Shown here: positions 11,736-50,119 of the stretch, piece after piece
How positions within the stretch are numbered: position 1 is the stretch's first letter
How the letters are laid out: every line of letters starts with the position of its first letter
NCBI GenBank assembly: GCA_021234155.1
Contig: JAJEKV010000073.1
Span: 3,072,001-3,136,000, forward strand
From: Isoetes taiwanensis
Lineage: Eukaryota; Streptophyta; Lycopodiopsida; Isoetales; Isoetaceae
DNA: 64,000 bases
Direction of reading: 5' to 3'
The notes under the pieces: model-generated
The model's database searches: none
Seen by the model: the letters and a program-made list of their open reading frames with translations, nothing else
Told to the model about the DNA's origin: nothing
Program-made: the position numbers and the translations under genes

Positions 11736-11791
11736 GTGAAGAAGTGTGGAAGGAGTTTGAGAAAAGGCGGCCAGCCGACGAGAGGCTTCTA

Positions 11792-16535: not shown

Positions 16536-18395
16536 CTAATGCGCCGTATTCTCCCCGCTAGTGGTAGATCTTCCTTTAACTTTTCTACTTGGGTTTTCTT
16601 CTTTTGTTTTTCTTCTTTGCACATCTTGAGTACTGTTATTGGCAGATTTGTCCAAGTTCCCACCATCCCCTTTTTCTTCACTTAAGCTTGCTTTCGTTTC
16701 TTCCGTATTCTCCATTCCTTTGTCATTATTTTTCTGATAGTCATCATCATTGTCCACAACCCTGAATCCTTCTGCTTGCATCTGATCAGTCCGCTTATTA
16801 TTATTTACTTTTTCCTTCTGTCTATCTTTGTAATAAGTTTGTTCATCAAAAACCACATCACGACTTATCACAATTTTATTCACAAGCGGCACAAACATTC
16901 TATATGCTTTGCTTTGCTCATCATATCCAACAAAATATCCTATTTCAGCTTTATTATCCAACTTCTTCCTCAACTCTTTTGGCACATGAATGTATCCGAG
17001 ACATCCATAGCATTTGAACATGTCATAATCTGTATTTTCTTTGTTTGACCAAACAACCTCTGGTATATTACCTTTTAGGCTTGCAGTTGGAAGCCTATTT
17101 TGCACATAAATTGCTGTTTTCAAAGCTTCCTCCCACAAATAATTTGGCAGACCTGAAAACTTCAACATTAATCTAACTGCATCAAGTAATGTCCTATTCT
17201 TCCTCTCGGCAACTCCATTTTGTTGTGGTGTGTACCTGCATGTCAGTTGTCTTCTGATTCCTTTTGTCATGCAATAAGATCTAAACTGTGCAGATAAATA
17301 CTCTCCTCCTCTATCTGACCTTATGCACTTTAATTTTCTGTTTGTTTGCCTTTCCATTTCTGAAACATACAATTTTAAAGCTTCAAGAGCTTGTGATTTT
17401 CGAGCCAAGCAATATGCTTTGCATTTTCTACTATGATCGTCTATAAAAGTTATGAAATATCTTTTTCCAGTTTTACCTCTGACATTTAGAGGGCCACACA
17501 AATCTGTGTGTACCAAATCCAGCACTCCTTCAGCCCGTTTACATGTTTTTGGAAAAGGCAATCGGGTTATCTTGCCTAGCATACATCCTTCACATATGCA
17601 TTTATGATTGTCCTCCACATTGCATGCTATAAGTCCCTGTTTTGCCATGAATTTCACATTATTATAATGTGTGTGTGCAAGTCTGTTATGCCAAGTATCC
17701 AAATCAGTCAACATTACTGCATTGATTCCATCAATAGAGCCATTTTCAATTTGAAACAAATTTCCAACACGTCTTGCCAAAAATTTCAGTTTATTCTCCA
17801 TAAAGATCTTACATATTTTCTTCTCAAAGAAGATTTTGTAACCAAGATCTACTAATTGACATACTGAAACAAGATTCTTTATCAAACTAGGAACACAGAG
17901 AACATTTTCAATATTTACAACATTTCCATCAAGGTCCAATAGCTGCAACATTCCACATCCTTCAACAGCCTGCAATTCTCCATTCCCTACTTGCACATGT
18001 TTTGATTTGGCTGATTTTTTATCCTTGAGCATATCCAGAGATCTTACTACTGATCTCTCAGCTCCACTATCAACTACAATCACAGAATTTTTCTCATTAG
18101 TTTGTGAATCAATGGTATTTAATGAGCAAATACAATGTACCTCATCATCACTTGTTTCTTCCTTTTCTTTTACTTCAGTCTTCTCCTGAGTGATATGTAT
18201 CCCAGCTGCTCCTCCTCTCTTTCCAGAAAAATATCCTCTTCCTCTTGTATCTCGTCCTCTTCCCCTTCCCCTGCCATACTCTTTTTCCTTTGGACTAGGA
18301 CATTTGGCAGCTATATGTCCTTTCCCTTTACAATTATAGCACATAATCTCTGTTTTAAGTTTAGGGCAGTTTGGTTTGATGTGCCCCTGCCTCAT
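16536..18395 (-). CDS. Copia nucleocapsid, protease and integrase ORF
   Basis: The 619-codon frame starts within a damaged first zinc knuckle (GHIKPNCPKL), followed by an intact CX2CX4HX4C knuckle CYNCKGKGHIAAKC and an RGRGRGRD basic tract. The protease is at about residues 105-120 with VIVVDSGAERSVV (D-S-G active site). The GAG-pre-integrase part is DTWHNRLAHTHYNNVKFMAK, with zinc-finger residues H, H, CICEGC. The integrase core has HTDLCGPLNV, FITFIDDHSRKCKAYCL and a D,D,E triad ending at CRYTPQQNGVAERKNRTLLD. The chromodomain-less C-terminus has VWSNKENTDYDMFKCYGCLG. It then runs into an acidic linker. This is the longest open frame of the window. Confidence 0.95.
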   Translation of the reverse strand: MRQGHIKPNCPKLKTEIMCYNCKGKGHIAAKCPSPKEKEYGRGRGRGRDTRGRGYFSGKRGGAAGIHITQEKTEVKEKEETSDDEVHCICSLNTIDSQTNEKNSVIVVDSGAERSVVRSLDMLKDKKSAKSKHVQVGNGELQAVEGCGMLQLLDLDGNVVNIENVLCVPSLIKNLVSVCQLVDLGYKIFFEKKICKIFMENKLKFLARRVGNLFQIENGSIDGINAVMLTDLDTWHNRLAHTHYNNVKFMAKQGLIACNVEDNHKCICEGCMLGKITRLPFPKTCKRAEGVLDLVHTDLCGPLNVRGKTGKRYFITFIDDHSRKCKAYCLARKSQALEALKLYVSEMERQTNRKLKCIRSDRGGEYLSAQFRSYCMTKGIRRQLTCRYTPQQNGVAERKNRTLLDAVRLMLKFSGLPNYLWEEALKTAIYVQNRLPTASLKGNIPEVVWSNKENTDYDMFKCYGCLGYIHVPKELRKKLDNKAEIGYFVGYDEQSKAYRMFVPLVNKIVISRDVVFDEQTYYKDRQKEKVNNNKRTDQMQAEGFRVVDNDDDYQKNNDKGMENTEETKASLSEEKGDGGNLDKSANNSTQDVQRRKTKEENPSRKVKGRSTTSGENTAH

Positions 18396-18576
18396 AGTGA
18401 GTTATAACAAAACTGTTTTATCACCCCGAGGCTTTTTCTTCCTTCCAAAGATATAGAATTTCAGCAAGCATTATCTTCTTCCCTCATCAATTTATTACGT
18501 TGCTTTGTTCTTAGCATGTTTTTACGCTTCTTCCCTACTCTTAGCCACGTTTCTAATCAAAAGAGATAGTTGAGCA

Positions 18577-25058: not shown

Positions 25059-28000
25059 TATATTGCAAGTTCGAAATAATATGTCTTGCATTCTAGCAGG
25101 ATATTCTGGTTATGGCTTATATAGATCTACTAGAAAAAGTGCCCAGCGTTGCTTGGCTTTTCGTTGGGATTATTCGAAATATATAAGGATGTCGTGAGAA
25201 CGTTTAGTTGGGCATATACAATCATTTGTTTTAAATTGAAGTTGAATATTGCCCTTATAAAGTGTTTTATTTATTGAGTTTAAAGCTTGAACATAAGTTA
25301 TAAAGTTTTAGAATGATCATAGCAATTCTCTTGCATTCATCGTGCAAGTGAATTTGTGTGTCGACTTCAAGCATTGTTTTTTAAAGCTTTCCTACCTATT
25401 TAGTTCTCTTTGATCTTTTGCACTTTTTTCGAAGTGGCTTTCACTCTTCGATTTTTGCATATTTTCAATTGCGATGAGTGAATGCCAACATTTGTTGATG
25501 ATTTGTTGTAAATTGGCATCAACGATCTTGGAAAAGGTGACTGCACATTTATTAATGCACAAGAACACATTTTTTCTCATGACCTTGCAAATCACCATGC
25601 AAAACATATGGAGACGTGTTTTGCATTGCAAATATAAATCACATTTTAAGCATATGTTACATGGAAGCAACAATTTTATCTTATTTATTCACCTTAAATC
25701 ACTAAATATCGGCCATAGCTGAAGGTGCAAAGTCCTAGAGATCAATATGCCTTGACATCTCATGAAGAAAGCTAAGCAGAGAACCTACTCTAAAAACTGC
25801 AACAAATATCCAGTGACCCCAGCCAGTTCGATAGCACTCTAGAAGTAGAAAAGGACTAAGCAGTATGGTCAGAATTGAAGACTTAAAAATCATTCACAAA
25901 ACAATATCCAAATTAGATCTACCGTTGCAGATGCAGTTTATTCCTTTTCAATAGTGAGAATTTCACTTTCAATACAACAACAGATTGTTAGAACAGATAT
26001 GACAGACAAACTGTGTTCCTTGTGTCATCTCTGCACACACTATACAATGATTAATTGTATAGACAAAGACAATAGAATACGTTTAACAAAGACCTCTCTC
26101 AATCTCCTTTTGAATTCAAATGCAGCTAGAAAAGCTAGAGCAGGGAAACTCAGAGACCAAAGCCAAAGGCAACAAACCCGGCAAGCATATCAAACACAGT
26201 AATAATTTCATTGGGTCAGTGCATTGGCTCAGAATCAGTGAACGCTAAATGAAAGCCCACTATGTGTGCAGCCATTCTTCAACAATTTGTCTTCGAGTTT
26301 CTGTTGTCACAAAATCTACAAAGGGCATACCTGTCCCTTAACTCAGCTTGGGTCACAACGTAATTTGACCATTTAAAATCACTAAATATCGGCCATAGCT
26401 GAAGGTGCAAAGTCCTAGAGATCAGTATGCCTTGACATCTCATGAAGAAAGCTAAGCAGAGAACCTACTCTAAAAACTGCAGCAAATATCCAGCACCCAT
26501 CTCTTTTTGCTTTATGCTCTGCCTTCTCTTCTTTCTTTGATCTGTTACCTTAAAAATGCCCCTCTATCAGGCCATCTACATTACATGATCATTTCTTGTA
26601 AAATTATCTACAGAACATTAATGATGTTCAGCAAACCAAAAGTGCAGATCATTTCCTTCAATGAACAACCGATGAAATTCCTTCAAACATGTGGAACAAT
26701 ACTCCTTGGTTTTACTTCTTCAGATCTTCTCCCTAATGCGACGGTCCAGTCTCCACTGAGTTTGGATCATTTCAGGCTCGATTTTGGTTCTCATTCAAAC
26801 AAGTTTGAATAGCATTGGCAGTGAATGCATGTCGTTTTTCAAACACTTCATCTCTATTAAAACACAACATGATCTTGACACACCATCAGCCAGTCATTGA
26901 ACTACTTATTTATGTAAAGAGATAACCAGACCAGGAATGCCTAGACTATTTGTATGGATAAACTCTAGCTAGGCTCAGGGATGTATTAGCATCCTTTGGC
27001 CCGTAACAGATAGCCTAGGTCACACAGAATGTGTATCAATTTGAACCTGCACTGAATAACCACCATACAGATTTTGCAGGTCAACTACCTTCAACAGATG
27101 CATCAACATCCGGATTTGGACAGTTGACTGACAAAGCAGCAGCAGGGTTAGAAAGTCAGAGTACACCACCTTGTCAGATTTAAAACATCTATAACATGCA
27201 AGAAAAGTCACATGCACTCCTTCAAAAAACATGGTCGCTACACACTTGTACCCTAACTCTATTACTCTCTGGTCCGCTGTGGCCGATCTCTGCAGATCCA
27301 GTCAGCAAGAGATCTGGAAAGAATAACATGGGGAAGCATCCTATGCATTACTTCCGGGAATGGGCTGTGAGAAAACAATCTTGCTGGATTTGAGAGAAAT
27401 ATAAAGTGGGATTTAAAACGTGGAAAACATGCAAGAAAAGTCACATGCACTCCTTCAAAAAACATGGTCGCTACACACTTCTACCCTAACTTTACTCTCT
27501 GGTCCGCTGTGGCGGATCTCTGCAGATCCAGTCAGCAAGAGATCTGGAAGGAATAACATGGGGAAGATCCATAGCCGCAATCCAAATTCGCAGAGTTCGG
27601 CACTAAAACTCAAATAGGATTCGGGCTCTTTTATTATCTCTTGATATGGCTCCAGTGCAGATTCTGCTCAATCAGATCGAAATATGTTAATTTAACAAAA
27701 CTTGCAAAATGGTTTTTCTCTGCATTTAGGGTCTGATGTACTTAACCTTTTCTCCCCCAAGAGGCATGCTATAGAAGCAAGTGTCTCTGCTGAAACTATG
27801 GCACTTGAACAGGGCATGTGTTTGCAAGAATTAGACAGCTTATAAAACATGTTACTGTTATGCTCTACTCGAAAGTTTTAAGAATAAACATTGCAAGACA
27901 TGCAGCCATCAAATTATAGTAGAGTTTTTGTGTGGCAGCATGAATCTCCTCACAGAAAAGAGCTAAAACATGATGTAAGATTTAATAGAACCCATATGAA

Positions 28001-28060
28001 TTCCCATGAAATAACAATAATAATAGAAATCCACAATAACGATTTGAATATTTGAATATA
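25059..28060. other. Intron-like or intergenic AT-rich stretch with local duplications
   Basis: Two direct repeats are visible. One is 25692-25812 against 26377-26494 (atcactaaatatcggccata). The other is 27194-27338 against 27427-27570 (agaaaagtcacatgcactcc), period 233 bp. A plus-strand acceptor-like site ttttgcag near 27080 is followed by an open stretch QLPSTDASTSGFGQLTDKAA that could be a stray exon. No family is recognised. Confidence 0.4.
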
Positions 28061-28069
28061 AATTCAATA

Positions 28070-28330
28070 CCTGGATGTGCTCAAGGATCAGTGGTTTGCT
28101 GGAATCAAGGATGAGGATGTAGAAAAACTGTCTTTACAAACTTCTCATAAGCAAATCCTAAAGCTAGATGCATGCATTAAGAGAAGCACAGATGATGCCA
28201 ATGTACCACTGCCTATGTGAGCTTGGAACCCTGCAACCATTATGGCAGAGCACCTCCATGTAGCCAGGGGCTAGAGCAGGCAAAGGTTAAGTGCATTGTG
28301 GCCTGGGTTAAAGCACTTCTTTTAGAATCA
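28070..28330 (+). pseudogene. PYRD: PYRD (RibD-type deaminase) exon fragment A
   Basis: From 28208 the plus strand reads TAYVSLEPCNHYGRAPPC followed by SQGLEQAKVKCIV. This is the zinc-binding second half of the RibD/PYRD deaminase active site (P-C-N-H-x-G-R-x-P-P-C). PYRD deaminates the pyrimidine intermediate of plastid riboflavin synthesis. Upstream (28070-28200) a second open frame LDVLKDQWFAGIKDEDVEKL is not recognised. Downstream similarity ends after AWVKALLL. A frame change just before TAYV and the lack of the other exons mark it as a fragment. Confidence 0.8.
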
Positions 28331-28539
28331 TTGCAGAGAGCACCAAGAATATAGACATGATGAAGTTTGCCGTCATGTCTAGCCCATCTGCATCCAAAGA
28401 ACAATCTATTTACCTTGAAAAATGAATCAATCAGAATCTATAATAACAAGATAGTAAGCAAAAACTTCAGCATATACTGCAAGAACTTTTTAATGGATCA
28501 ACAATAATAAAAACCTAACCTTTTATTGACAGCAAAGAT

Positions 28540-28800
28540 GTGGTGGAGTAAAAAATGCAGAAACAAACCACTCCAAATCCCATGGGGTTGGCTGCATAAT
28601 TGTTAAAAATGGGAGTATTATTGTGCACGGTTATCGTCCTAAGGCTGGAGAACCAGCACATGCAGAGGTAACTTAAAACTATCTTTACAAGACTTCTGAT
28701 GGGCAAATCCTAGAGCTTACAAATTTGTAGGTGCATGAATTTAAGAGAAGTAGAAAATGATGCCAATGGTGCCACTGCATATGTGAGCCTGGACACATAC
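28540..28800 (+). pseudogene. PYRD: PYRD (RibD-type deaminase) exon fragments B
   Basis: A second, adjacent copy carries the exon before fragment A: TTPNPMG, then in another frame VGCIIVKNGSIIVHGYRPKA and GEPAHAE, ending at a donor (gag/gtaact) at 28667. H-A-E are the zinc ligand and catalytic Glu of the deaminase. Two extra G bases (catgggg) between PNPM and VGC break the frame. At 28751-28790 EVENDANGATAYVSL follows, the start of the next exon, but it then turns into unrelated sequence. Fragments A and B share flanking DNA (tctttacaa...gcaaatccta), so the piece was duplicated locally. Confidence 0.82.
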
Positions 28801-29038
28801 TCCATTCCAATATCTGTTATTGGCATGACATAAACAGAACACATCAATACAGAGGCAAATGTATCTTCCAAAACAGCAGCAAGTTGTCTAACAGCACTGA
28901 GCTAAAGAAATAATTGCAGATGCAGAAACACAAGGTCTTTGAAGTATCCACATTACATGTTGAAAGAATACTGTATCTTTGATTGCATAAGAACACAATC
29001 CACACCAGATTATTTAGACCTTGTAAGTGCTTTAAAAA

Positions 29039-30255
29039 GGTTATCTTTTCAAAGGAGTCAGGCTTATAAGACTTGTTTCCGTCTAGCTCAACGTCTTGTT
29101 GTATTTCCAAGTAACTCCCATGAAGCATACAGTGCACGATTCCACAAAGCCCATAGGTATCAACCTACAAAATCATTAAGCAAGGCAAATAAACATAAAG
29201 AAGAACTATTAATAAACACACATTGTCTCTAACAATTTAGGCATTACAAAAAAGTATTACCTGAAATTTCCAAGCTCTATGTTCCTTCATTTCAATGCAC
29301 TGAAATGCTGATGTCTTGCGATCTCCAACAAACTCAACGTCGTCTGGAAGTAAAGTTAGATCAATGGCTCTCCCCAATCAATCAAGCACAGCCCCTAGAA
29401 TGGATCTAATCAGTCTTATCCTTATAACTAACATAACCATTAATACTATCACCTGGTCTTTCCAACAGCCGGGGCGGTTGTCATCCCAATTTTCACTGCA
29501 TATATTAAAAGTATTGAATTACAAAAGGTACTCCCAGAAAGTGCTATGCTAAAAGAGCTTTATACGTAACTGTTTATGCCCACCTTTCATGACGAATAAG
29601 AAGATTATCAGGTTTAAAGTCGCCATGAATAATACCAGCAGAATGTAATACCTCTAGCATTTGCAACATCTCAATGGCATAATACATGCACAAGATCTCA
29701 TCCATCTTTTGATCATTGGCCAAGTAAGCATTGATGACATCCTAAAGTATCCCAGAAATTTTCATGTAAGAACAGATGTAACACAAGTGAGACAATTTCT
29801 GTGGTAAACAAATACCTGTAAGGTTCCATGAGGACCATAATCAACAACCATTATACTGCAATCCGAGAAGGCATGCATTTTCCTCACTTTCCCAAAGCTG
29901 CTTCCCTGCATGAGTACCAGACATGAATTACTCAACATTATAAAAGATGGTACTATCAAATCAAGGAAAACAAACCTTGATGTAGCCCCTTACCTCCTCA
30001 GAAGAAATGCGTTTATCAAGTTGAGAATAAATATAGAATTCCCAAGTGCATGGTGGTCTTTGGACCTACAAAAGGGTTAAATTGAATTGCCATATGATAC
30101 ACGAACAAAAAAAACTATATCTCTGATGAATTACCCTTAGAACAATTGTACCATCGTAACCATCTTGCTCTGCTTGGTATACCTGTGCAAAGGCTCCTTG
30201 TCCTGTGCAACCTTTGATATGATATGAAGTATTACCTATTGGAAGGAAGGCAGGT
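29039..30255 (-). pseudogene. BUB1: BUB1-type spindle-checkpoint kinase domain, broken
   Basis: Seven minus-strand exons with good splice sites encode the kinase domain of a plant BUB1-like protein, which at kinetochores delays anaphase. They are 30255-30135 (GCTGQGAFAQVYQA glycine loop), 30065-29994 (VQRPPCTWEFYIYSQLDKR), 29905-29816, 29741-29584 (LHSAGIIHGDFKPDNLLIRH catalytic loop), 29495-29453, 29394-29261 (CLIDWG, then shifted) and 29164 down to about 29039 (VDTYGLCGIVHCMLHGSYLE). Two lesions stand out. The ATP-binding Lys of the VLK-VQ motif is Arg (VLR-VQ). The exon at 29394-29261 is 134 bp where phase needs 135, because one G is missing in the run after the DW of the activation segment. 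The N-terminal Mad3/BUB1 domain and GLEBS region are absent. It is probably a fragment of a larger gene copied as genomic DNA. Confidence 0.9.
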
Positions 30256-31110
30256 CTGCAGTCTGAAAACTTCAGCGATTGTTATGCTAAAAGCAAATGC
30301 TTTCTCCATGTCACTGTCACCTAGTTGGAGAGTTTTGTTGCGTGCATTGTTTTAAAGATCCATAAATGCTTCAATAAACAGCATACAGTTTACATGTGGA
30401 ATTGAACTCCGCATATGTTTTCTTCTTTCTATCTTAATCTTATACATGAAAAACATACTTGACAAAATAAAATTTACTATAGCCCATTTCTGCAATTTTA
30501 TACTCTGACAACTATGGGCATTCCGGAAGATATACTACTCACCAATGAGCTTCACAAAATTCTATGGGCAAATCTTTGGCAATCCATCTCATTTGGTAAG
30601 GAGTCTTGAACAACAACATCTCTGCCCTTAAACGGATTTGGCATGAAAGTCTCGTGATGTCATTCCTATTAGCAACCAAAACAAACAATGCCAAACAAAT
30701 CAACGCACTAAAATAATTTATGAAAAATCGATGTCTTCTCAAATGCTCTGCGTATTGGGATCGTGGACTAACTCTTGAGAAATCTAATTGTGCATAATCC
30801 GAACTGATTGCTTGTGTTTTATAAGAAGGCCCACCGGAAAATAACCCTGACCATAAAAGGCAAGAGGACGAAAAACTTACAAAAGAAGAAGGTCTTGGAT
30901 TAGGTTGCTCTCCGCATTCGAGTTTTCCAGTGGCACGATGAGCTCTAGTTATCGACAATGGCATCCTATTAACAACCAAAACAAATAGCTCGAAAGAAAC
31001 CGCTAAATCAACGCTCCAAAATAAGTTAAGAAAATCAAGGGTTGAGATTGCGCACAGACAAAATCAACGGTCGAGATGCTCTGCACAAACTACATTTTGC
31101 TTTTATTACT
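30256..31110. other. Upstream of the BUB1 fragment, nothing recognised
   Basis: A 146-codon minus-strand ORF (30979-30539) has no recognisable domain and is likely chance. The phrase atcctattaacaaccaaaacaaa occurs twice (near 30662 and 30965), a small duplication. No further BUB1 exons are visible. Confidence 0.4.
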
Positions 31111-31145
31111 ATATATAGATATAGATAGATAGATATAGATATTGG
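31111..31145. repeat. TATAGA microsatellite
   Basis: atatatagatatagatagat repeats over about 35 bases, forming the left border of the next repeat module. Confidence 0.8.
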
Positions 31146-31316
31146 TAGGAAGCTTTCCTAAAGTAACTGAGCTATTGTAGCTTGATTTTCCAATTGAAAA
31201 ACTAGAAACAAAACATATATTGGGTAGAGTATAGTCTAGTTCTGGCTTCCATAGTTCTACATTGGCATGAGCCGTATTAAAATAGTTAGAGAGATTGAGC
31301 AAGTTAAAGCTCGATT
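31146..31316. repeat. Solo module of the 35.8-44.1 kb array
   Basis: The 170 bp from gtaggaagctttcctaaagt to aagttaaagctcgattttt recur at 37617-37795, 40393-40570 and 43154-43332 inside the large array. Here the module stands alone next to the GPAT exon. Confidence 0.92.
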
Positions 31317-31517
31317 TTTGGGTTGCCCCTAAGGGGGCAAACCCTTGTTTATATGGGTTTATGGGATATTCCAAGTATATGCCAGTATATGCTTGGGATA
31401 TGCTAATGACTGCTAAAAACCCACTGTTGGCCGTAAACTGGCGGTCATTTATGTTGCAGGGGAGCTCCTCTGGGAACCGGTTAACTGGTGTTCTAATCTT
31501 GGTGTTCTAATCTGTAG

Positions 31518-31787
31518 CTCCAAAATGCTGGACTCAAGGTTTCGCAAATTGAGCAAGTTGCAGGGGCTGTTCCTTCCAAGTTTTACTCAGAAGATGTGCA
31601 TTCTCATGCCCTGCGGATTTTCTTATCTTGCGGGAAGAGATACGTCGTAACTGCAAACCATCGTATATTGGTTGAGGATTTTGCGAAGACCTACTTAGGG
31701 GTAGACAAGATTTTAGGAACTGAAATCGAAGTCACTAAGGGTGGAACCGCTACCAGATTCTTGAAAAAACCTGGGGTTTTAGTTGAG
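31518..31787 (+). pseudogene. GPAT: GPAT exon (glycerol-3-phosphate acyltransferase, cutin type)
   Basis: One 90-codon exon, phase 0 at both ends, lies between tctgtag and gag/gtatta. It reads NAGLKVSQIEQVAGAVPSKF, YSEDVHSHALRIFLSCGKRY, VVTANHRILVEDFAKTYLGV, then KILGTEIEVTKG and FLKKPGVLVE. This is the HAD-like N-terminal half of land-plant sn-2 GPATs (GPAT4/6/8 or RAM2 group), membrane enzymes that make cutin or suberin precursors. The preceding DGT exon and the acyltransferase exon are missing. No stop interrupts it, so the exon alone looks fresh. Confidence 0.87.
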
Positions 31788-31975
31788 GTATTACTTGCTG
31801 TTTTCCTGATAGAACAGAGCACTTTCTGAGTTATGCATCTTGACCTTTTCTTATCTGTGCAATAATGCTGGTTATCAATTCTAGTTTGTGCTATTTCAAC
31901 TAGCTGATGTAGTTTTATTGTTCATAGGCAGTTTCGTATAAGATATAACATAGTAACAGTAGCCTTACATTGCAG

Positions 31976-32251
31976 TGGCTTTGACATTAATTGGTGGAGT
32001 TCAACATGTGGATGCCTCTGGAACAAGAGTACGAGGGGAGTCACACTTGCTCCTTGTTGGGTATCCTGGTCTGATGCTTAGAATCGTCGACGACTAATTC
32101 AAACATCTAACAAGCAATGGAAAACTTCTGGCAGGTACTGGCAAGTCACAGTTTTTGAAGTATGCAGCAAAACTGAGTCATCGATCTGTCATTACGACTG
32201 GGCTTGGAAGTACTAGTGCTGGACTTACCGTGACAGCTGTAAAGGATGGGG
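31976..32251 (+). pseudogene. MCM9: MCM9-type helicase exons around Walker A
   Basis: Two exons (31976-32068 and 32135-32251) join in phase across a 66-bp intron (cctg/gtctga...ggcag/gtactgg). They give [40 protein letters not shown] and [20 protein letters not shown] with [11 protein letters not shown]. This is the start of the MCM ATPase core. The pattern [15 protein letters not shown] and the [16 protein letters not shown] block match MCM9, a DNA-repair helicase partner of MCM8, better than MCM2-8. The Walker A motif reads GYPGTGKS, where MCM proteins have GDPGTGKS. No earlier or later exons follow; a PPR array starts after 150 bp. Confidence 0.88.
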
Positions 32252-32397
32252 GTGAGCAAAGACAAGCTGACAACAAAGCCATGTGTAGCCAAGCCAAAGT
32301 TCTGACTGTTGCATCCTTTTTCTAGACATATCGTTGGTGCCTTGTGTGTCATCCTTGTTATTCTTGCTCTTATGTCTATCTTCTCTGTCATTACTTA

Positions 32398-33688
32398 AGA
32401 GTTCATGGAACATCATGATTGCTGCATATGACCTTCAAGGACTTCTCAAGGAGGCATTTGAACTTTTTGAGCAAATGCCGCACAGGAATGTGGTGTCATG
32501 GACAACCATGATTGGCGCATTATGTCAGCATGGTTATGTAAAGAAGGCCATGGAACTTTTTAAAGAGATGCCTGAACGAAACGTGGTATCTTGGAATGCA
32601 ATTATTGCAAGGTATGCCCAACAGGGCTGTATGGAAGAAGCTCTTAAACTTTTTGAGCAAATGCCTGAACGTGATATAATTTCATGGAATGCAATGATCT
32701 CAGGTTATGCCAGACAAGGGAATTTTGACATTGCCTTAACTTTGTTCAAACAGATGCCTGAGCATGATATAGTTTCGTGGAATGCCATGGTTGCGCTTTA
32801 TGCACAGCAAGGAATGCTCAAAGAAGCCTTTGGTCTTCTTGCAGAAATGCCAGAACCTAACATTGTGACATGGAATACCCTTCTTGTAGCTCATGCCAAC
32901 ATGGGCAGTTCAGACAAGCATCTGAAATTTTTGAACAAATGCCTCAAAGGGATGTTATCTCCTGGAATGCCATGATTACAGCTTATGCTCAGGAAGGATA
33001 TTTCATGGATGCCCTTGAAGTTTTTGAGAAAATGCCCCAAAGGAATATGGTCTCTTGGAACTCTATCCTTGTAGTCTATGCCCAGCAGGGATTGTTTGAT
33101 GAGGCTCTTAAAATTTTTGAAACAATGCCTCGGCGGGACATTGTATCATGGAATACCATGATTTCAGCATATGTCCAGGAAGGAAACTTGAAGGAGGCCT
33201 TTTACCTCTTTAAACAAATGCCTGAAACGAATGTAGTTTCATGGAACATCATGGTTGCTGCATATGCACATCATGAATATCTCAAGGATGCCTTTGAGCT
33301 CTTTAAACAAATGCCTCAAAGGAACACAGTTTCGTGGAATGTCATACTGTCTGCTTATGCTGACCATGGATTATCTAAAAAGGCCATCCAGTTCTTCAAT
33401 GAAATGCCCGACAGGAATATCATTTCTTGGACAATAATGATCAGCGTGCATGCCAGGCAAGGCAACTTCAATAAAGCCTCCCAACTTTTTGAGGAAATGC
33501 CTTGGAAGGATGTTGTTTCATGGTCTTCCATGATAGCTGCATATGCGCAGCATGGTAATGGTAAGGGTGCGGTTAAGATTTTGCATAAGATGGTGCAAGA
33601 AGGGACCAGACCAGATGCAGTGACTTTGGACAGTATTATCTTTGCGTGCGCTGCTATGTTCGGGCTCAATACAAGATATTTCATCTGA
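32398..33688 (+). pseudogene. PPR protein, 13 consecutive 31-residue motifs, frameshifted
   Basis: The array begins abruptly at SSWNIMIAAYDLQ (no plausible N-terminus or transit peptide) and continues with MPHRNVVSWTTMIGALCQHG, MPERNVVSWNAIIARYAQQG, MPERDIISWNAMISGYARQG and so on. Twelve nearly uniform 31-residue (S-type) motifs and a final longer one (QEGTRPDAVTLDSIIFACA) end at 33688. PPR proteins bind organelle RNA, one base per motif; residue 5 and last-position combinations are mostly N/D types. One base is missing near 32897 (gccaac), so two ORFs are needed (to 32975 and from about 32897). No E or DYW domain follows. The start joins directly to MCM9-derived DNA. Confidence 0.93.
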
Positions 33689-33909
33689 AACATTATCCAC
33701 CATAGCTCTCGCCTGACGAACCAATTGGCTCAAGCTATAGGCTGCCGGTGTAATCAGAATTATCAGAGTTAAGCTACTCTTCCAAGTGCACTCTTAAATT
33801 CAAAACGCAGATTGATGCAATTGGAACATGTAAAGACAGAGTGAAAACTTGTTTGGACATGAGGAGTTTAAATGTAAAGCTTAATATCTTAGATTCTATT
33901 GCGTAACAT

Positions 33910-34810
33910 TTGTGTGTTGCAGATATTACCTGTCTCTTGCAAAGATGCAGGAAAGAGAGAAGCTTAGATTATGGAAAGCGTTTGCACATGCATATTCTTA
34001 ATAACGGGCTTGAGATTCATAGATATCTTAGAACCCACATTGGTCCTGACAAAGGTGGATCTTCTGTAGAGGCACCAGACACTGCCCATTAGAAACGTTG
34101 TGTTCCTTGTGTTATACAACTCATTACTTGCAGGAAATGCAAAAAATGGATATGGTCGTGAAGCACTGAAATGTTTTGAAGAAATGAAACAGGAGGGCAT
34201 TGCTCCAAGTGCCGTCATATTTGTTTGCACCTTAAAAGCTTGTGAAATCATGGCGAATATTGATAGGGGTCGTGATTTACATAAGCAAATAGGGCAAAGA
34301 GGACTCGAAACAGATCCTTTTGTTGGAAACACTTTAGTTGACACTCCCCGAAGCATAGGATTTTTGACAATATGCCTGTCAGGTCAGGGATGTGGTCTTA
34401 TGGAATGTGCTAATAATATCAAGTTATGCGGTCTTATGGAATGTGCTAATAATATCAAGTTATGCTGAAAATGGGCTGGGACTAGAAGCTCTGAAATGCT
34501 ATAGAGATATGCAATTAAATGGGATAGCCCCAAATGCTATAACATTTTCTAGCTCACTCAAGACATGTAGCAATGATTTTTCCCTTGAAATGGGTCGAGA
34601 AATACATTTAAAAATTGCACAGGAGGGATTGGAGGCCGACATCTCTACAGCAATATGTGAATTGTGGCTCTCTTGCAGGGGCACAAGAAGTTTTCAACAA
34701 GCGCAGTATTCCAAATTTGGTGTCATGGAATACACTAATTACGGGATATATCGACTGTGGGCTTTGTTGGAAAGCATTAAAATGTTATCAACAGATGGAA
34801 CTTAGGGGGA
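33910..34810 (+). pseudogene. PLS-type PPR protein remnant, several frameshifts
   Basis: Pieces in order are: DITCLLQRCRKERSLDYGKR with LHMHILNNGLEIH (33925-34020), then NSLLAGNAKNGYGREALKCF, MKQEGIAPSAVIFVCTLKAC, LHKQIGQRGLETDPFVGNTL (34110-34340), NGLGLEALKCYRDMQLNGIA (34460-34530) and QYVNCGSLAGAQEVFNKRSI with PNLVSWNTLITGYIDCGL (34650-34770). This is the P-L-S motif order of plant organelle RNA-editing factors, unlike the uniform array upstream. At least three frame changes and a missing SLI-MYAK motif mark it as dead. No E or DYW end is found. Confidence 0.88.
34394..34465 (+). repeat. 36-bp in-frame tandem duplication in the PPR remnant
   Basis: ggtcttatggaatgtgctaa plus 16 more bases occur twice back to back, duplicating 12 codons (VLWNVLIISSYA) at a PPR helix. 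Confidence 0.92.
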
Positions 34811-35845
34811 TAACTGGAGATGCCATTACTGTTCCTGTCAGTGTGAACTGGGAAATTCATTTTGTACTGGTATTTCAATTTGCTAATTGCTTTTTACGTG
34901 CATTTATAATTCTATTTTATTACGAGCCACTTTTACAAGGGTGGATGTGGAATTACTGGTATGCCTGGCCTGCCAGCTTCTGTCTTCTATCCCTCTGCCC
35001 CACACCAGTGTTGGGGAATGTTTTTGATCTTAATAGGAAAAATTCCTACTACTTTTGAGGGCATTCGAAATTTACAAATTCTAATCGGAAGCTTCCTTCA
35101 ACCGAATTTTGATAAACTAAAATTAAGTTTTATATTGAGCCCTTTCTGTGATATAACAAAGCATGTAATATGCAGAAACAAGAAAAAAGGGTTGTATTCT
35201 TGTTTAAGGCACAATAGAGATAGACGAGATTCTGATCTTTGACATACAAGAGTTGCATATAAGAGCAAACAAAATCTATCTTGTATTCTCAACTGTGCTC
35301 TTCCTTTCATGACATTATTTTCTTTCATCCTACAAACGAGGATTTAATTGATCGGCCATAGCCTGTGGTTGTGATGCTTAAGAAATAACACACATATAAA
35401 TGCCGTCCCCTGCTCTGCAAGGCGGCAAGAATCTGAAATCACTCAAAAATTGTGCGGGATGGGTTCCGTTAGGTTTCCATGCCATACTGATAACTATTAA
35501 TGTTGGACTGTACACCTACTGTCTCTGGGGGAACTTCCCCAGTGCTGCCCCACACATCGATAAACTAATGGAAAACATACCCCAATTATTAAGTACTGCC
35601 CTTATTTTCTTTTCCTTACCACACCCACTATTATATCATAGGTGGTTCATTATTTCTTTCTGCAATACTTCTTCCATGTCGAGCACCAAAGATTTCTTCA
35701 AGCCAATTCTCATAAAGTCATGGTATCAAGTATTCTATTGTCTTGATGTAGCAATTTGAATTGATTGTCAAGACTTTGAACTATCATTTAAGCCACTTCA
35801 CCCTCCGGCCATGGAGGGCAACCCTCCGTGCGCAGCACCTTGTTT
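34811..35845. other. Downstream of the PPR remnants, nothing recognised
   Basis: Open frames here (for example 35400-35759) lack conserved motifs. A short Cys/Pro-rich stretch near 34960-35010 is not recognised. No RNA gene is seen. Confidence 0.35.
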
Positions 35846-37795: not shown

Positions 37796-40570
37796 GTGAG
37801 CATTGAAGGCAGTAGCCATTAAGTTCTTACTTCATATCCTTTCTTGCTCAAATTAACTGAGGGCAAAAGGCACAATGGGTGATCAGTGATAAACTGAGAG
37901 TCCCAATGTACCTTTTGGCCCTTGCACGTTTACCATCATCATGCTAATCGTGTATTGAATGGCTGCAGGTACCGGACTCTCCTCTCATTGTGTCTTATGC
38001 TTTCAAAAGGTTTGTTTGGCTTGAAGGAATATGAAGATTTTGAAGAGTAACAGGCCAGAGATTTGCTATTTCAAGTCTTTGTGCAACTATGGATAGATCT
38101 TAAATTGTTTTAAGTACACTGAATGATAGTGAGCTATAATCTACAGTTTGTGGTAAGCTTTATGAATTTTTAGACAAGGCAGCTTGATGGTTGATAGCCA
38201 AATATGAAACATGAATCAATTGAAAGGTTGTTTTTGATATTATGAACATGGCTGTGCATCTAAAATAAGAAATGCTGAATGCATGCATTATTAACTTGTG
38301 TAATAAGTACTTTATTACACTATACTATTATGGATTCAATTTCTAAAGGCATATTGTGCATTGAAATGGCTTACTTGGCAATTGATTTAATTCCAGGGAT
38401 TTAAAATGTAACATGCTTCACAGGCAAATATTGTGAGAAAGTTTATTGCTTATGCTGACTAATGTTTCTTTGATGTGGATGGGACATGGGGTACCATGCT
38501 ATTCTATTCTAGTAATGGGAGGATAATACTGCCAAGGGATTGACCAAGGCAGATGTCTGGTAACTAGTTCAGGCCGTGTTTTTTTTAGGAACTTCTTCTC
38601 ATTGGTACATCCAGTGTTGCCGCATGTTCCTTTGACGTTTGTCATGAGCAAGGTATGTTTTCCTAGGATACTACCTAGGAGCGAAATTGTTGACACCATA
38701 TAATCATTAAGTTTAAATAAATATGCTGGACTGATCGGATAGAATTGAATTATTTCTTTATCTACTTGGCTAAATGCAATTTACTTACATCTTTATCTAC
38801 TTGGCTAAATACAGGGCTACTGCACAAAAGGAAAATGTGCAAAAGGAAAATATTCACCACTAGGCCTGACACAAGTCCATTGCCAGTTGGATGGACATTA
38901 TGCACAATTAGGAAAATGTTTGGCCAGTAGGCCAGACAATATTCCATTGCCAGTTGGCTGCCACTTGGTTGTACACTATCTACAAGGATTTCCACTTGTA
39001 TGGATTTTTGATGAGATTTATGCACAATTAGGATAATGTTTGGCCAGTAGGCCAGACAAAATTCCATTGCCAGTTGGCTGCCACTTAGTTGTACACTATC
39101 TACAAGGATTTCCATTTATATGGATTTCTGATGAGATTTACTGCAATTATGCAGACTACCACATGACAACACAGCGGTGTTGCAATTGCTAAATCTTTAG
39201 TAAGGTATGATATCACCCTTTTGAAAATATAGGCTAATATGGGATGTGGCATAACCCCTACTGTGATAGTGGGGGTTAGCCATCCCCATGTCTACAGTTA
39301 ACTAAATTGGTGTTATGCCCATATCCCACGGTAGGTGGTAGGGTTTTTTTTATTATGATTTAGCTGAAGCATGCTCCGTCTTCCCTAAGCTTGGGAGTAT
39401 TTTTTTAAAAAACTGAGTACTAAAATGTGTACGTGGTGTATAGCATAAAGCTGGCACAAATTATACCATGGTGTGACCATGTGGGTTGCTTAAGCAAGTT
39501 AAAGGTAAAGTTTCCAGCTTGCATGTAACCTTTGAAAATGTTGTGGACTTGGGGGTTACACAAAAAAACAACATGAAGTATGGCATGGGTAAAGCTAGAC
39601 TATATCTGCAAATGCAAATACGGAATACAAGATATGAAAAGAAATTTGCAGATATGAATTATAAGGCATGATCTGGCTGCCAATATTCAAGTCTCATGGG
39701 CAGTTTTCTTCCTAAATAGCCGATCCCTAATTTTTAGTGGCCGCATTATCTGAACAAAGACATTTTTGCAGCCAATTGTTACATATTTATCTGAACAAAG
39801 ACATTTTTGCAGCCGATTGTTGCAAATACCAGTGTCGCAGCCGATAGCTCACCATTGTGGTCTCCTGATCAGGCCTAACAAAGACATCTTAAAGCAAGAT
39901 TGACGGTTTTCACAGGTTTTCACGGTTTGATAGGCAGGGGTCAGGCCCGAGTTCATTGTTTTATGGAATTTGTTCATGTTCAAGCTATGGGCTGAAACAA
40001 AATCGGTTTTTTCATCATGTTCTTTCTTCTGCACGGTTCCTCCTTGAAACTCAGTCCTTGAAACTCAGGGCAAAGTTGACCTTAGGAGAGGTTTCATATG
40101 ACCATGCCTTGAACTCCATTTCTACTCTGTAAAAAGACATCCATATAACTCAAGCTGATGGAGATCCATATAACTCAAGATGATGGCGATATGGGCTTCG
40201 ACTCAAACGGCAACCAGGTTTTATTATATCTTATTAAATGTTTGCTATGGAAGCTCATTTCGAGTTTAATATAAAGTATCTGAGTACTTGGATTACTTTG
40301 ATCTGTGTCAAACATGCATATATTGCAGGTTCGAAATAATATGTCTTGCATTCTAGCAGGATATTCTGGTTATGGCTTATATAGATCTATATTGGCAGGA
40401 AGCTTTCCTAAAGTAACTAAGCTATTGTAGCTTGATTTTCCAACTGAAAAACTAGAAACAAAACATATATTGGGTAGAGTATAGTCTAGTTCTGGCTTCC
40501 ATAGTTCTACATTGGCATGAGCCGTATTAAAATAGTTAGAGAGATTGAGCAAGTTAAAGCTCGATTTTTT
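37796..40570. repeat. Large direct-repeat array, copy 2 (2.78 kb, complete)
   Basis: Full unit in order: gtgagcattgaagg start, exon-like piece, 120-bp internal duplication at 38876-39120 (attccattgccagttggctg, twice), an inverted pair around ggcataacccctactgtgat and ccatatcccacggtagg (39245-39340), the 0.9-kb module shared with 22.7-25.0 kb (39345-40240), and the aagctttcctaaagtaact module at the end. Confidence 0.95.
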
Positions 40571-43332
40571 GCGAGCATTGAAGGCAGTAGCCATTAAATT
40601 CTTACTTCATATCCTTTCTTGCTCAAATTAACTGAGGGCAAAAGGCACAATGGGTGATCAGTGATAAACTGAGAGTCCCAATGTACCTTTTGGCCCTTGC
40701 ACGTTTACCATCATCATGCTAATCGTGTATTGAATGGCTGCAGGTACCGGACTCTCCTCTCATTGTAGGTTTGTTTGGCTTGAAGGAATATGAAGATTTT
40801 GAAGAGTAAGGTTTTAGATTTGCTATTTCAAGTCTTTGTGCAACTATGGATAGATCTTAAATTGTTTTAAGTACACTGAATGATAGTGAGCTATAATCTA
40901 CAGTTTGTGGTAAGCTTTATGAATTTTTAGACAAGGCAGCTTGATGGTTGATAGCCAAATATGAAACATGAATCAATTGAAAGGTTGTTTTTTATATTAT
41001 GAACATGGCTGTGCATCTAAAATAAGAAATGCAGGATGCATGCATTATTAACTTGTGTAATAAGTACTTTATTACATTATAATATTATGGATTCAATTTC
41101 TAAAGGCATATTGTGCATTGAAATGGCTTACTTGGCAATTGATTTAATTCCAGGGATTTAAAATGTAACATGCTTCACAGGCAAATATTGTGAGAAAGTT
41201 TATTGCTTATGCTGACTAATGTTTCTTTGATGTGGATGGGACATGGGGTACCATGCTATTCTATTCTAGTAATGGGAGGATAATACTGCCAAGGGATTGA
41301 CCAAGGCAGATGTCTGGTCTAGTTTTAACTAGTTCAGGCCGGGTTTTTTTTAGGAACTTCTTCTCATTGGTACATATAGTGTTGCCGCATGTTCCTTTGA
41401 CGTTTGTCATGAGCAAGGTATGTTTTCCTAGGATACTACCTAGGAGCGAAATTGTTGACACCATATAATCATTAAGTTTAAATAAATATGATGGATTGAT
41501 CGGATAGAATTGAATTATTTCTTTATCTACTTGGCTAAATGCAATTTACTTACATCTTTATCTACTTGGCTAAATACAGGGCTACTGCACAAAAGGAAAA
41601 TGTGCAAAAGGAAAATATTCACCACTAGGCCTGACACAAGTCCATTGCCAGTTGGATGGACATTATGCACAATTAGGAAAATGTTTGGCCAGTAGGCCAG
41701 ACAATATTCCATTGCCAGTTGGCTGCCACTTGGTCGTACACTATCTACAAGGATTTCCACTTGTATGGATTTTTGATGAAATTTATGCACAATTAGGATA
41801 ATGTTGGGCCAGTAGGCCAGACAAAATTCCATTGCCAGTTGGCTGCCACTTAGTTGTACACTATCTACAAGGATTTCCATTTATATGGATTTCTGATGAG
41901 ATTTACTGCAATTATACAGACTACCACATGACAACACAGCGGTGTTGCAACTGCTAAATCTTTAGTAAGGTATGATATCACCCTTTTGAAAATATGTTTT
42001 CATTCCAATTAGGTAGGCTAATATGGGATGTGGCATAACCCCTACTGTGATAGTGGGGGTTAGCCATCCCCATGTCTACAGTTAACTAAATTGGTGTTAT
42101 GCCCATATCCCACGGTAGGTGGTAGGGTTTTTTTTATTATGATTTAGCTGAAGCATGCTCCGTCTTCCCTAAGCTTGGGAGTATTTTTTTAAAAAACTGA
42201 GTACTAAAATGTGTACGTGGTGTGTAGCATAAAGCTGGCACAAATTATACCATGGTGTGACCATGTGGGTTGCTTAAGCAAGTTAAAGGTAAAGTTTCCA
42301 GCTTGCATGTAACCGGGGTTACACAAAAAAACAACATGAAGTATGGCATGGGTAAAGCTAGAGTATATCTGCAAATGCAAATACGGAATACAAGATATGA
42401 AAAGAAATTTGCAGATATGAATTATAAGGCATGATCTGGCTGCCAATATTCAAGTCTCATGGGCAGTTTTCTTCCTAAATAGCCGATCCCTAATTTTTAG
42501 TGGTCGCATTATCTGAACAAAGACATTTTGCAGCCAATTGTTACATATTTATCTGAACAAAGACATTTTTGCAGCCGATTGTTGCAAATACCGTGATAAT
42601 CATGGTAGATAGCTCACCATTGTGGTCTCCTGATCAGGCCTAACAAAGACATCTTAAAGCAAGATTGACGGTTTTCACAGGTTTTCACGGTTTGATAGGC
42701 AGGGGTCAGGCCCGAGTTCATTGTTTTATGGAATTTGTTCATGTTCAAGCTATGGGCTGAAACAAAATCGGTTTTTTCATCATGTTCTTTCTTCTGCACG
42801 GTTCCTCCTTGAAACTCAGTCCTTGAAACTCAGGGCAAAGTTGATCTTAGGAGAGGTTTCATATGACCATGCCTTGAACTCCATTTCTACTCTGTAAAAA
42901 GACATCCATATAACTCAAGCTGATGGAGATCCATATAACTCAAGATGATGGCGATATGGGCTTCGACTCAAACGGCAACCAGGTTTTATTATATCTTATT
43001 AAAATGCTATGGAAGCTCATTTCGAGTTTAATATAAAGTATCTGAGTACTTGGATTACTTTGATCTGTGTCAAACATGCATATATTGCAGGTTCGAAATA
43101 ATATGTCTTGCATTCTAGCAGGATATTCTGGTTATGGCTTATATAGATCTATATTGGCAGGAAGCTTTCCTAAAGTAACTAAGCTATTGTAGCTTGATTT
43201 TCCAACTGAAAAACTAGAAACAAAACATATATTGGGTAGAGTATAGTCTAGTTCTGGCTTCCATAGTTCTACATTGGCATGAGCCGTATTAAAATAGTTA
43301 GAGAGATTGAGCAAGTTAAAGCTCGATTTTTT
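40571..43332. repeat. Large direct-repeat array, copy 3 (2.76 kb)
   Basis: Same order as copy 2 with small differences: 19-bp deletion in the exon-like piece, loss of about 20 bases near 42313 (aaccggggttac), and an insertion-like change at 42594 (gataatcatggtag). The start has gcgag instead of gtgag. Confidence 0.95.
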
Positions 43333-45104: not shown

Positions 45105-46889
45105 ATATACAAGTTATTGTACTATGAGGGACTGTACAAATTCGACTAGAAGCCAAATGTAGTGCCTTCCAACGAAGATCCTATAAAGATTCTCCTAGAT
45201 TCTTCAAGACTCTAGAAAAAATTCTCTAGATACTATGAGATTCCATCAATGTTCGCTTATATTCCCCAAGATCCGAGGATTATTCCTCAAGGAATTGTAC
45301 AAATTCGAGTAGAAATCAAATTTAAAGTCATGCGATGAAGATTCTATAGAGATTCTCCAAGATTCCACCAAGATTCTTTAGATACTCAAAGATTTTATGA
45401 GGATTCCCTGAGATTCCTTTTAAGATTCTCTTGAGATTCCCCTAGATTCCCATAGATTATCTTAAGATTCCTCAAGATTCCCTGTAGATTCTTCAAGATT
45501 TCCTTAGATTCTATGAAGATCCCCCTGTAGAACACACCTAGTATCAAAGATTCCCCTAGATCCCCTTGGACTCCCCCTAAATTCCCTAAAATTCCATAAA
45601 CATCCCCTAGATTCCTAAGGTTCTACAATCTGAAGATTCCTTTAGATTCCTTAAGATTATATGTAGATTCTCCTAGATTCCCTTAAATTCTACCAAGATT
45701 CCAATAGATTCTCTAAGATTCCATCAAGATTCCCCTAGATTCTCAAATATTGTTTGCAGATTCTCTTAGATTCCCCTATATTCTTTTGATTCCCATAGAT
45801 TCCTTAAGATTCTCTTCACATTTTCTTGATTCCAAAGGTTGTCCCAAGATTCCTCTAGATTCCTTTAGATTCTTAAATATTCTCTTAAGATTCCCTTAGA
45901 TTCCCAAATATTATCCTAAGATTCCTCTAGATTCTCCAAGATTCCAAGTAGATTCTTCTAGATTCCCTTAGATTCTATGAAGATTCCCCTGTAGAACACA
46001 CTTACTGTCAAAAGTTCCCCTAGATCCCTTGGAATCTCTCGCGATTCCCTAAGATTCCACAAAGATCCCCCTACATTTTTAATGTTCTATAAAGATTCCT
46101 CTAGATTTTCAAAGATTATTTGAAGATTCATTTAGATTCTCCAAGATTCTATGTAGATTCTCCTAGATTCCCTTAAGTTTTATGAATATCCCCTTAGATC
46201 TCTAAGATCCCATCAATATTTCCCTCGATTAGTAAACCTTTTTTGAAGCTTTCTTAGATTCCCCTAGATTCTTTTGAGATTCCCATAGATTCCTTAAGAT
46301 TCTCTTGAGATTCCCGTGACTTTCAAAGATTATCCCAAGATTCCTCTAGATTACATAGATTCTCTTAGATTCCCTTAGATTCTATGAATATTCCCCTAGA
46401 TTATCCAACATTGCACGGAATGATGCCAAACCACTACTCATTGGAAAGCATTTGATGAGAGGAATCCAATGGCATTGGTCCCACTTTGATCCGAGACCTC
46501 CACCGCAAGATAAAGTCGTTTGAAGGCGACGCAAAAAAAGAAGCTTCCAAGAAAGCTTCATAATTAATGAGTTGCCACCTCACTATCTTTTCATTAAATA
46601 AAGGGTGCCACCTCACCTCCTTTAATATAAAAAATTCTAATTTAATAAGAAATTGAATGGCCATGATTTCGCCTCCCCTTTTGATCCGATGGTCCAGGGA
46701 TGTGTTGCATGCCTTCATGTGGCCATGCATGCCCCATGCATGACTCATCCATAATCCAATGGCTCACGTCGCGCCACTCAATCAATGTCCCCAATCCCAC
46801 GGTAGAGAAGCGTGTTACATATTTTTAACATGTCATATACACCATGGGTACATCGTTTTCAAGGCACACATAGAATAATCTTATACATA
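45105..46889 (+). repeat. Composite GATTC satellite unit 1
   Basis: Head (45105-45175: atacaagttattgtactatg, gagggactgtacaaattcga), body of degenerate agattcccctagattctcaa words (45176-46410), and tail (46411-46889) with ccaaaccactactcattgga, tgagaggaatccaatggc, the AT-rich part and gtacatcgttttcaaggcac. The body is the longest of the set. Confidence 0.93.
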
Positions 46890-48640: not shown

Positions 48641-48870
48641 AGAAGATACTCCTTGTGAACGTTGCTGAACCTTGACTTCTTATGGCTGAACAGCTCCAGG
48701 CTTTGGCTCTTGCTGCACACATTGCTATGATGGTTGCCCACTAATGCTTCAACAAAATTCACTTGCAACTGCATCTAAAAACTGGACACTTGATCATACT
48801 AAATTTACGCTAGAAAATACCATTGAGACTAATTCTAGCTATGGTTATGTTTGCTCCAGAATGCGAGCCA
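48641..48870. other. Foreign 230-bp insert between satellite units
   Basis: This piece lacks GATTC words. One plus-strand frame reads LATASKNWTLDHTKFTLENT, but no family is recognised. It may be a fragment of a retroelement or host gene trapped between units. Confidence 0.4.
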
Positions 48871-50119
48871 ACAGTTTCCCCTAGATTCTCAAAGATTAAC
48901 CCAAATTATTTCTAGATTCTCCAAGATTTTATGTAGATTCTCCTAAATTCCCATAGATTCTATGAAGATTCCCCTGCAAAACACATCCAATGTGAAAGGT
49001 TCCCCAAGATTCCACAAATATTCTTCCAGATTCTTAATGTTCTGCAAAGATTCCTCTAGATTCTCTAAGATTATATATAGATTTTATGTAGATTCCCCTA
49101 GATTCCTTTACATATTATATATATTCCCCTAAATTCCATTAGATCTAAGTACATTCCCTTAGATTCTCCAAGATTCCACTAAAGATCATATAGATTCTCA
49201 AAGACACTACGAAGATGCACTTAGATTCTGCTAGATTTTCTAAGATTCTCTTACGATTCCCATAGATTCCCTAATTCTGTTGAGATTCCTCTAGATTCCC
49301 CAAGTTTCTATGTAGATTCTCCTAGATCCCCTTAGCTTCTATGAAGATCCCCTTAGATTCTTCAAGATTTTATCAAGATTCTCCTAGATTCTCAAAGGTT
49401 TTATAAAGGTTCGCTTAGATTCTTAAAGAGTCTCTTGTGATTCCCATAGATTCCTCAAGATTCTATTAAGATTCCTTTACATTCTTTAAGATCCTATAAA
49501 GATTCCCCTAGATTCTCTTAAATTCCCATGTTCCATAAAATTCCAAGATTCCAAGAAGATTCTTAGTATTCGATCATTTCGCTTCAATTACGACGAAACG
49601 ATATCAAAGCACTACTCATTGGAAAGCTCTCGATGAGAGGAATCCAACGGCGTGGGCCCCACCTTTATCCGATCCCTTTGCTGCAAGTTATGGGCTTTTG
49701 AAGACAATTACAAAAAAGAAGCTTCCTCGAAAGTCCTTCCATAAATGTTGATGCAACCTCATTACTTTTTTTATTAAATGAGGATGCCACCTCAACACCT
49801 TTAATAAAATAAATTGCAACTTAATAAAAAACTTAATGGCCAGGATTTCTTCTCCCCTTTTTGATCCAAAGGGTGAGATTGGCCACACCAAAAAGCATCT
49901 TTAAAGACCTTCCTTGCACCTTCCCTGCAAAAGTCAAGGGCTATGATTTTGCCTTCCCCCCTTGATCCGACGGTCTAGAGGCACGGTGCATGCCCCATGC
50001 ATGACCCCATGTAGATCCTAAGGCCGTAGTTGTGCCACCTCATTGGCCCACAAACAGACGGCCTAGATTGATTTCAATATGTAATCTATCCATGGGTACA
50101 TCGTTTCCCATGGACACAT
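48871..50119 (+). repeat. Composite GATTC satellite unit 3
   Basis: Body 48871-49570 without a head, then a full tail to cccatggacacatag. The tail contains a 67-codon minus-strand ORF (49891-49688) that recurs in other tails and is treated as incidental. Confidence 0.93.

Follow-up and report, generated by a model that had tools for sequence, protein, structure and literature searches.

Gene fragments in a tandem-array unit of Isoetes taiwanensis lie within two adjacent non-autonomous rolling-circle transposons

Results

We analysed 64,000 nucleotides of the genome of Isoetes taiwanensis (assembly GCA_021234155.1, contig JAJEKV010000073.1, positions 3,072,001 to 3,136,000; hereafter the window, in whose coordinates positions are given). 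An earlier sequence-only reading had placed at 28070-34810 a block of fragments of several genes and had attributed it to one large gene-capturing transposon or to repeated break repair. The block consists of parts of two non-autonomous rolling-circle transposons that neighbour each other within a single tandem-array unit. Very probably the two inserted independently into this 2.77-kb unit: element A, a minus-strand Helitron of the canonical type that carries PYRD and BUB1 fragments, and element B, a plus-strand Helitron2-type element that carries GPAT, MCM9 and PPR fragments. The proposed capture by Helitron-type elements was borne out, with termini and empty sites found for both; the limits of the block had to be redrawn to 25130-31139 (A) and about 31320-35842 (B).

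Insertion sites and termini

The host of both elements is the unit of a tandem array (unit length about 2.77 kb) that occupies 22176-44120, with units 90–98% alike in most stretches compared. Relatives of this array also exist elsewhere in the genome, some as short arrays. Between the two elements, 31140-31319 (no strand assigned) is host array-unit sequence with 96–97% identity to the units at 37609, 40378 and 43140.

Element A spans 6,010 bp (25130-31139, minus strand), starts with TC, ends with CTAG, and is flanked by host A and T. Its flanks, joined as host 25129 to 31140, align ungapped across the join with the array units 40325-40455 and 43085-43215; a third unit, at 37555, lacks 6 bp exactly at the insertion spot. 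The empty site was accordingly seen in two of the three units compared, with insertion between A and T and no target duplication. On the minus strand the first letters of A are TCTATATC and the last are a hairpin, 7 nt and CTAG. The 3′ terminus (25130-25157, minus strand), established from fetched copies and the empty site, comprises a hairpin with the family form GCCCAGCAACGCTGGGC, the 7 nt ACTTTTT, and CTAG; the family form folds with a perfect stem (z -3.5). The CTAG boundary was identical in all five fetched copies and is preceded on the plus strand by A, so that on the element's own strand CTAG is followed by T. The 5′ terminus (31045-31139, minus strand) is a repeated end stretch that stops in a TATAGA tract, within which the five fetched copies end at differing points; the TC start is fixed by the empty site. 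An alternative placement of A as a plus-strand element with TC at 25126 was dropped because the empty site and the hairpin with CTAG place it on the minus strand. With up to 3 mismatches allowed, a search of the genome (1,658,258,908 bases in 1,110 contigs) returned 5,362 matches (2,643 + 2,719) to the 3′ family form and none to the control. A canonical Helitron is defined by a 5′ TC, a CTRR 3′ end, a hairpin roughly 11 nt before that end, and insertion between A and T without target duplication (PMC4067079, PMC5148889). Element A has the 5′ TC, the 3′ CTRR with hairpin, and the A^T site without duplication.

Element B (about 31320-35842, plus strand) measures 4,523 bp from GGG to CTTG, as delimited by its ends and its empty site. 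Host array sequence stops within a T-run 180 bases past A and resumes after 35842. In all three neighbouring array units compared, the site is uninterrupted and contains six T, reading CTCGATTTTTTG(T/C)GAGC, with CTCGATTTTTTGTGAGC in two units and CTCGATTTTTTGCGAGC in one, and no target duplication. The insert begins with GGGTTGCCCCTAAGGGGGCAAACCC after T and ends with GGAGGGCAACCCTCCGTGCGCAGCACCTTG. Its 5′ terminus (31320-31344, plus strand), placed by predicted DNA folding and genome matches, holds the repeat GGGTTGCCC (31320-31328) inside the hairpin GGGTTGCCCCTAAGGGGGCAAACCC, for which a folding energy of -10.6 kcal/mol was predicted (z -2.3). The 3′ terminus (35803-35842, plus strand), placed by fold and alignments, holds the partner repeat GGGCAACCC (35816-35824), then a GTGC-GCA-GCAC hairpin and CTTG. 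The 9-bp inverted repeat GGGTTGCCC/GGGCAACCC is asymmetric: its 5′ copy opens the element, and its 3′ copy stops 18 nt short of the 3′ end (the last G of CTTG).

The ends of B recur as a large family. At up to 3 mismatches the 5′ end had 6,037 genome matches (2,971 + 3,066) and the 3′ end 3,801 (1,877 + 1,924), with 0 for either control; no single site among the loci fetched was scored on both strands by the 5′ pattern. At least four T precede 19 of the 21 5′ ends compared, the remaining two (loci L001 and L013) being degraded; this count excludes two wrong-strand palindromic rows, does not include L009, and leaves a degraded second L006 copy unmatched. At least two T follow all 16 of the 3′ ends compared, and no target duplication was seen by eye at the flanks of the compared ends. 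Element B therefore has the asymmetric repeats, the 5′ and 3′ hairpins, and the T-run insertion without duplication of Helitron2. The proposed search for TC and CTRR ends with a hairpin thus succeeded for A, but B lacks such ends.

These sites decide against a single large gene-capturing transposon across the whole block. That explanation draws on the fragments of several genes adjacent within 7 kb, but host array sequence (31140-31319) splits the block in two, both parts possess termini and an empty site of their own, and no match except the window itself covers both parts among the matches listed. We rejected it as extremely improbable on account of the intervening host sequence and the two empty sites; two independent elements of different classes take its place. 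The same sites bear on a Pack-MULE, or another terminal inverted repeat (TIR) transposon, as the captor. Pack-MULEs carry gene pieces containing introns, which favours this idea, and are marked by long TIRs and a target duplication. No inverted repeat pair of at least 30 nt (14-base exact seed) was found in 20-44 kb, neither empty site shows a duplication, and the ends are of Helitron type. Pack-MULE capture, which the sequence-only reading had offered with a search for long TIRs, was rejected for A and B and carries a negligible probability.

Captured gene fragments

The PYRD, BUB1 kinase, GPAT, MCM9 and two PPR stretches named by the sequence-only reading are all present, as confirmed by PDB sequence search and Pfam, and their orientation is mixed as it stated, with BUB1 on the minus strand and the other fragments on the plus strand. 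When 28070-34810 was compared with the whole genome, at least 63 matches emerged (best 40 of 5,227 candidates scored), and among those listed the match ends recur at 28796/28797, 30358, 30506, 31058, 31526, 31785, 32401/32402 and 33649. The captured pieces match other loci at 84–98% identity over 260–1,576 columns with sharp breakpoints, which excludes chance. Their closest relatives sit on separate contigs among the matches listed. Nothing was found in favour of a gene cluster that decayed in place; the relatives on different contigs and the empty sites of A and B in neighbouring units of the same array argue against it, and we give this explanation virtually no probability.

Element A carries a PYRD (RibD-type deaminase) segment at 28108-28796 (plus strand) with two exons and introns, 84.5% identical to locus L020 and 84.4% to L028, two loci that are probably not independent because they are 99.3% alike. 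The exons at 28196-28351 and 28530-28673 (both plus strand) matched RibD chains in PDB with E values of 4e-9 and 7e-5, respectively; by Pfam alone they were weak (dCMP_cyt_deam_1, E 0.03, under its cut-off). PYRD had been counted twice, and two exons are indeed present, but they lie in one contiguous 689-bp segment, since L020 and L028 already contain the exon duplication. Directly adjoining is a BUB1 kinase segment (28797-30358, minus strand) with exons and introns, 96.3% identical over 1,576 columns to L018 and in part 78% identical to L048. Its exon at 29577-29741 (minus strand) had BUB1 as the best PDB match (3e-7), and the segment matched Pkinase in Pfam (E 3e-8). A further segment of unassigned nature (30506-31058, no strand assigned) is 94.8% identical to L019 and 90.1% to L029, is mostly common to three other loci (C1035, C1032 and C1007) and partly to more, and has an open reading frame (ORF) that matched no Pfam family; it is possibly Helitron-borne and not a host gene. 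Elsewhere inside A, 131-bp direct repeats (94%) lie at 25683 and 26363, and a discrete 664-bp repeat (25830-26493) has 17 near-full-length matches (76–93%); 25683-26493 is possibly a small long terminal repeat (LTR)-type element nested within A.

In element B, a 5′ part (31315-31525, plus strand) belongs to a lineage of PPR2-carrying B-family elements, lineage P, with 89.6% identity to L005 and 88.6% to L009. It is followed by a GPAT exon piece (31526-31785, plus strand; 96.9% over 260 bp to L027; HAD_RAM2_N in Pfam, E 7.5e-13), which is joined through the overlap TTG to an MCM9 piece with introns (31783-32401, plus strand; 97.1% to L016, 96.6% to L017). The latter matched the MCM domain in Pfam (4e-14) and MCM9 as the best PDB hit (4e-16). 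Next stands a frameshifted PPR1 piece (32402-33649, plus strand), 98.4% identical to L014 over 1,248 bp without a gap. The frame change is also found in this nearest copy (L014:2062-3309; equal stop counts in two frames, ungapped), so L014 is not an intact PPR1 source. The 3′ part (33650-35845, plus strand), with PPR2 at about 33715-34810, is again of lineage P, with identities of 92.3% to L003, 93.4% to L004, 90.8% to L005 and 90.1% to L007 over the stretches each locus covers.

The pieces were said to be incomplete with introns and splice phases kept. Incompleteness stands for GPAT, as L027 has a nearly complete HAD domain, and for MCM9, as L016 has additional MCM and lid exons; AG/GT exon ends were recognised by eye in PYRD, MCM9 and one BUB1 exon. 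The GPAT and PPR1 pieces are cut within exons. The search for parental genes yielded the nearest copies with their divergence (GPAT 96.9%, MCM9 97.1%, PPR1 98.4%, BUB1 96.3%, PYRD 84.5%) but no proven parent.

The seven P-lineage loci (L003-L009) all have the 3′ part with PPR2, and five of them (L005-L009) the 5′ part; the two that were aligned past 31525, L005 and L009, diverge there into other DNA. Four loci of a second lineage, Q (L010-L013), carry GPAT-MCM9-PPR1 behind B-type 5′ ends, that of L013 being degraded, and the three aligned (L010-L012) retain GPAT upstream sequence that is present in L027 and absent from the window. A P-Q-P composite is present in the window and in L001 and L002, and the last two are 94.7–95.5% identical to that of the window. 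Judged from these alignments, B is a chimera of two B-family lineages, with P ends and a Q interior (GPAT-MCM9-PPR1). At L001:1012-6975 a near-full B copy comes immediately after a truncated 5′ half of B, a pattern expected of rolling-circle concatemers.

Junctions between pieces in B are clean, with about 0–3 bp of overlap where both source sequences could be compared. Such overlaps would also fit ordinary double-strand-break repair with filler DNA, in which the fragments were stitched together and the elements merely carried the result. We regard this as quite improbable: composites with identical ends occur repeatedly, as units, at dispersed loci, and from the junction type one cannot tell break repair within a transposing element apart from capture while it transposes. 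For the whole block, repeated break repair is unnecessary, because neighbouring units preserve a separate empty site for either element, but it may describe joins inside the elements.

Related elements and RepHel genes

Seven further B-type elements were chosen for having both ends close together among 100 exact matches listed per end. They have about 100–340 bp in common at their ends and little else at the threshold used; L043 and L046 have a small inner element in common, and L042 has a segment in common with L014. Ten of their 16 ORFs of at least 130 aa were compared with Pfam, of which two matched PPR and eight nothing at E 0.01. Three of the seven (L042, L043 and L046) have two B-type 5′ ends upstream of a single 3′ end, through either nesting or read-through from the upstream end.

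RepHel genes are present in the genome, with all 150 listed PF14214 places above the cut-off (best 150 of 1,813 candidates), and all four ORFs scanned (L021-L024) have both Helitron_like_N and PIF1. Three of five RepHel loci scanned (L021, L023 and L024) have a hairpin and CTAGT end resembling that of A, a count without a shuffle control. In L021 and L023 this end is GCCCGGCAACGCCGGGC followed by 7 or 9 nt and CTAGT, and L024 has a related end with a different loop; none is identical to A. A structural scan for any Helitron2-like ends found none in five RepHel pieces, L025 being left out as 4,000 of its 9,501 bases are N, and recovered all three positive controls. No endonuclease domain was found at E 0.001 in the four RepHel ORFs L021-L024, all from loci without B ends.

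Surrounding sequence

Long ORFs at 16536-18401 and 9755-12384 (both minus strand) resemble, as read by eye, Copia-type and Gypsy-type retrotransposon polyproteins. Degenerate AGATTC-type tandem repeats of 10, 21 and 31 bp fill long stretches of 45411-63062, some recurring at about 1-kb spacing.

Discussion

Both elements would have been moved by a RepHel protein supplied in trans, with single-strand rolling-circle copying. Since the PYRD, BUB1 and MCM9 pieces contain introns, the source of the captured pieces was DNA and not mRNA. Capture may have occurred by copying beyond the element end, or by a template switch at DNA breaks during copying, in several rounds. The pieces probably encode nothing functional.

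Several observations weigh against the interpretation of A and B as a Helitron and a Helitron2-type element with the history given above. In the window copy of A the 3′ hairpin has one stem mismatch and a z of only -1.0. The GTGC-GCA-GCAC hairpin of B appears in the best fold, but the z of the stretch is only -1.6 and the centroid differs. Because B lies in a T-run, its terminal T cannot be counted exactly, although there are probably two in all besides GGG...CTTG. Shared flanks of L007/L008, L010/L013 and L011/L012 mean that the P and Q loci represent fewer events than loci, and L018, L014 and L020 are nearest copies and not proven parents. Finally, no RepHel gene was found between B-type ends: with up to 9 mismatches allowed, B ends were absent from all six fetched RepHel pieces (9.5 kb each, two containing 1,000 and 4,000 N). 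This negative carries little weight, because just 150 of the 1,813 PF14214 candidates were scored.

On a broader proposal, which we hold to be doubtful, the Helitron2-type family of thousands would be a main engine of gene shuffling in a lycophyte genome. It would build chimeras stepwise from pieces of its own sister elements (P ends, Q interior) and, as no B-type partner was seen in the small RepHel sample, would possibly be moved in trans by canonical Helitron RepHel.

The P and Q lineages form an ordered record of captures, and the array supplies internal empty sites; together they make the pick-up of DNA by Helitrons testable from sequence alone. Such elements may also have left false or chimeric genes, PPR above all, in the I. 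taiwanensis annotation. By title or abstract start we found no paper on Helitron or Helentron gene capture in Isoetes or lycophytes in the open literature, subscription papers not being covered, and the I. taiwanensis genome paper does not use the word 'helitron' in its main text (PMC8566536; supplements not searched). Software that searches for canonical ends overlooks Helitron2 (PMC5148889).

Element A resembles the canonical Helitron (Helitron1) in all defining end marks and in its intron-containing gene pieces; it differs in nothing but the particular genes, and its RepHel partner is not matched copy for copy. For B the nearest systems are non-canonical. One named Helitron2 example is Helitron-5_SMo, in which we take SMo to be Selaginella moellendorffii. 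The Helitron2 examples come from an alga and others, including this one, and have a 5′ repeat 0–2 bp and a 3′ repeat about 20–30 bp from the ends, hairpins, and in Chlamydomonas a TTTT^T/C target (Bao and Jurka 2013, PMC3627910). Element B is like these (PMC3627910) in its asymmetric repeats, 5′ hairpin with the repeat, 3′ repeat upstream of a hairpin, T-run and absence of duplication, but differs in carrying several gene pieces and joining two lineages; its class is assigned from its ends.

In common with Helentrons, HINEs and DINE-1, element B has a TT or T-rich target and palindromic subterminal repeats, ends in T strings, and belongs to a high-copy group of non-autonomous members, some with gene fragments (Thomas et al. 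2014, PMC4067079). It could accordingly be a HINE-like derivative of a Helentron, whose RepHel has an endonuclease, and not a Helitron2 in the narrow sense, as its T-run target, variable terminal T strings and palindromic subterminal repeat would suggest (PMC4067079). This derivation is rather unlikely, as the 3′ inverted repeat, 18 nt from the end, is near the 20–30 bp of Helitron2 (PMC3627910) and nearer the end than the 38–60 bp of mite HINEs (PMC4067079), and no partner bearing an endonuclease was seen in the small RepHel sample. With FoHeli of Fusarium oxysporum, B has in common non-canonical Helitron2-like ends, asymmetric repeats and hairpins, whereas its terminal sequences and insertion context are different and the FoHeli host is fungal (PMC5148889).

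Helentrons are reported as not identified in most plants (PMC4067079), and a Helitron2-type family this large in a vascular plant contrasts with that report. Neither gene capture by Helitrons nor ends of the Helitron2 type are new. Less expected is a thousands-strong, gene-carrying Helitron2-type family in a lycophyte; also unusual are the capture of element into element and the occurrence of two Helitron classes within a single array unit while the empty sites of both persist nearby.

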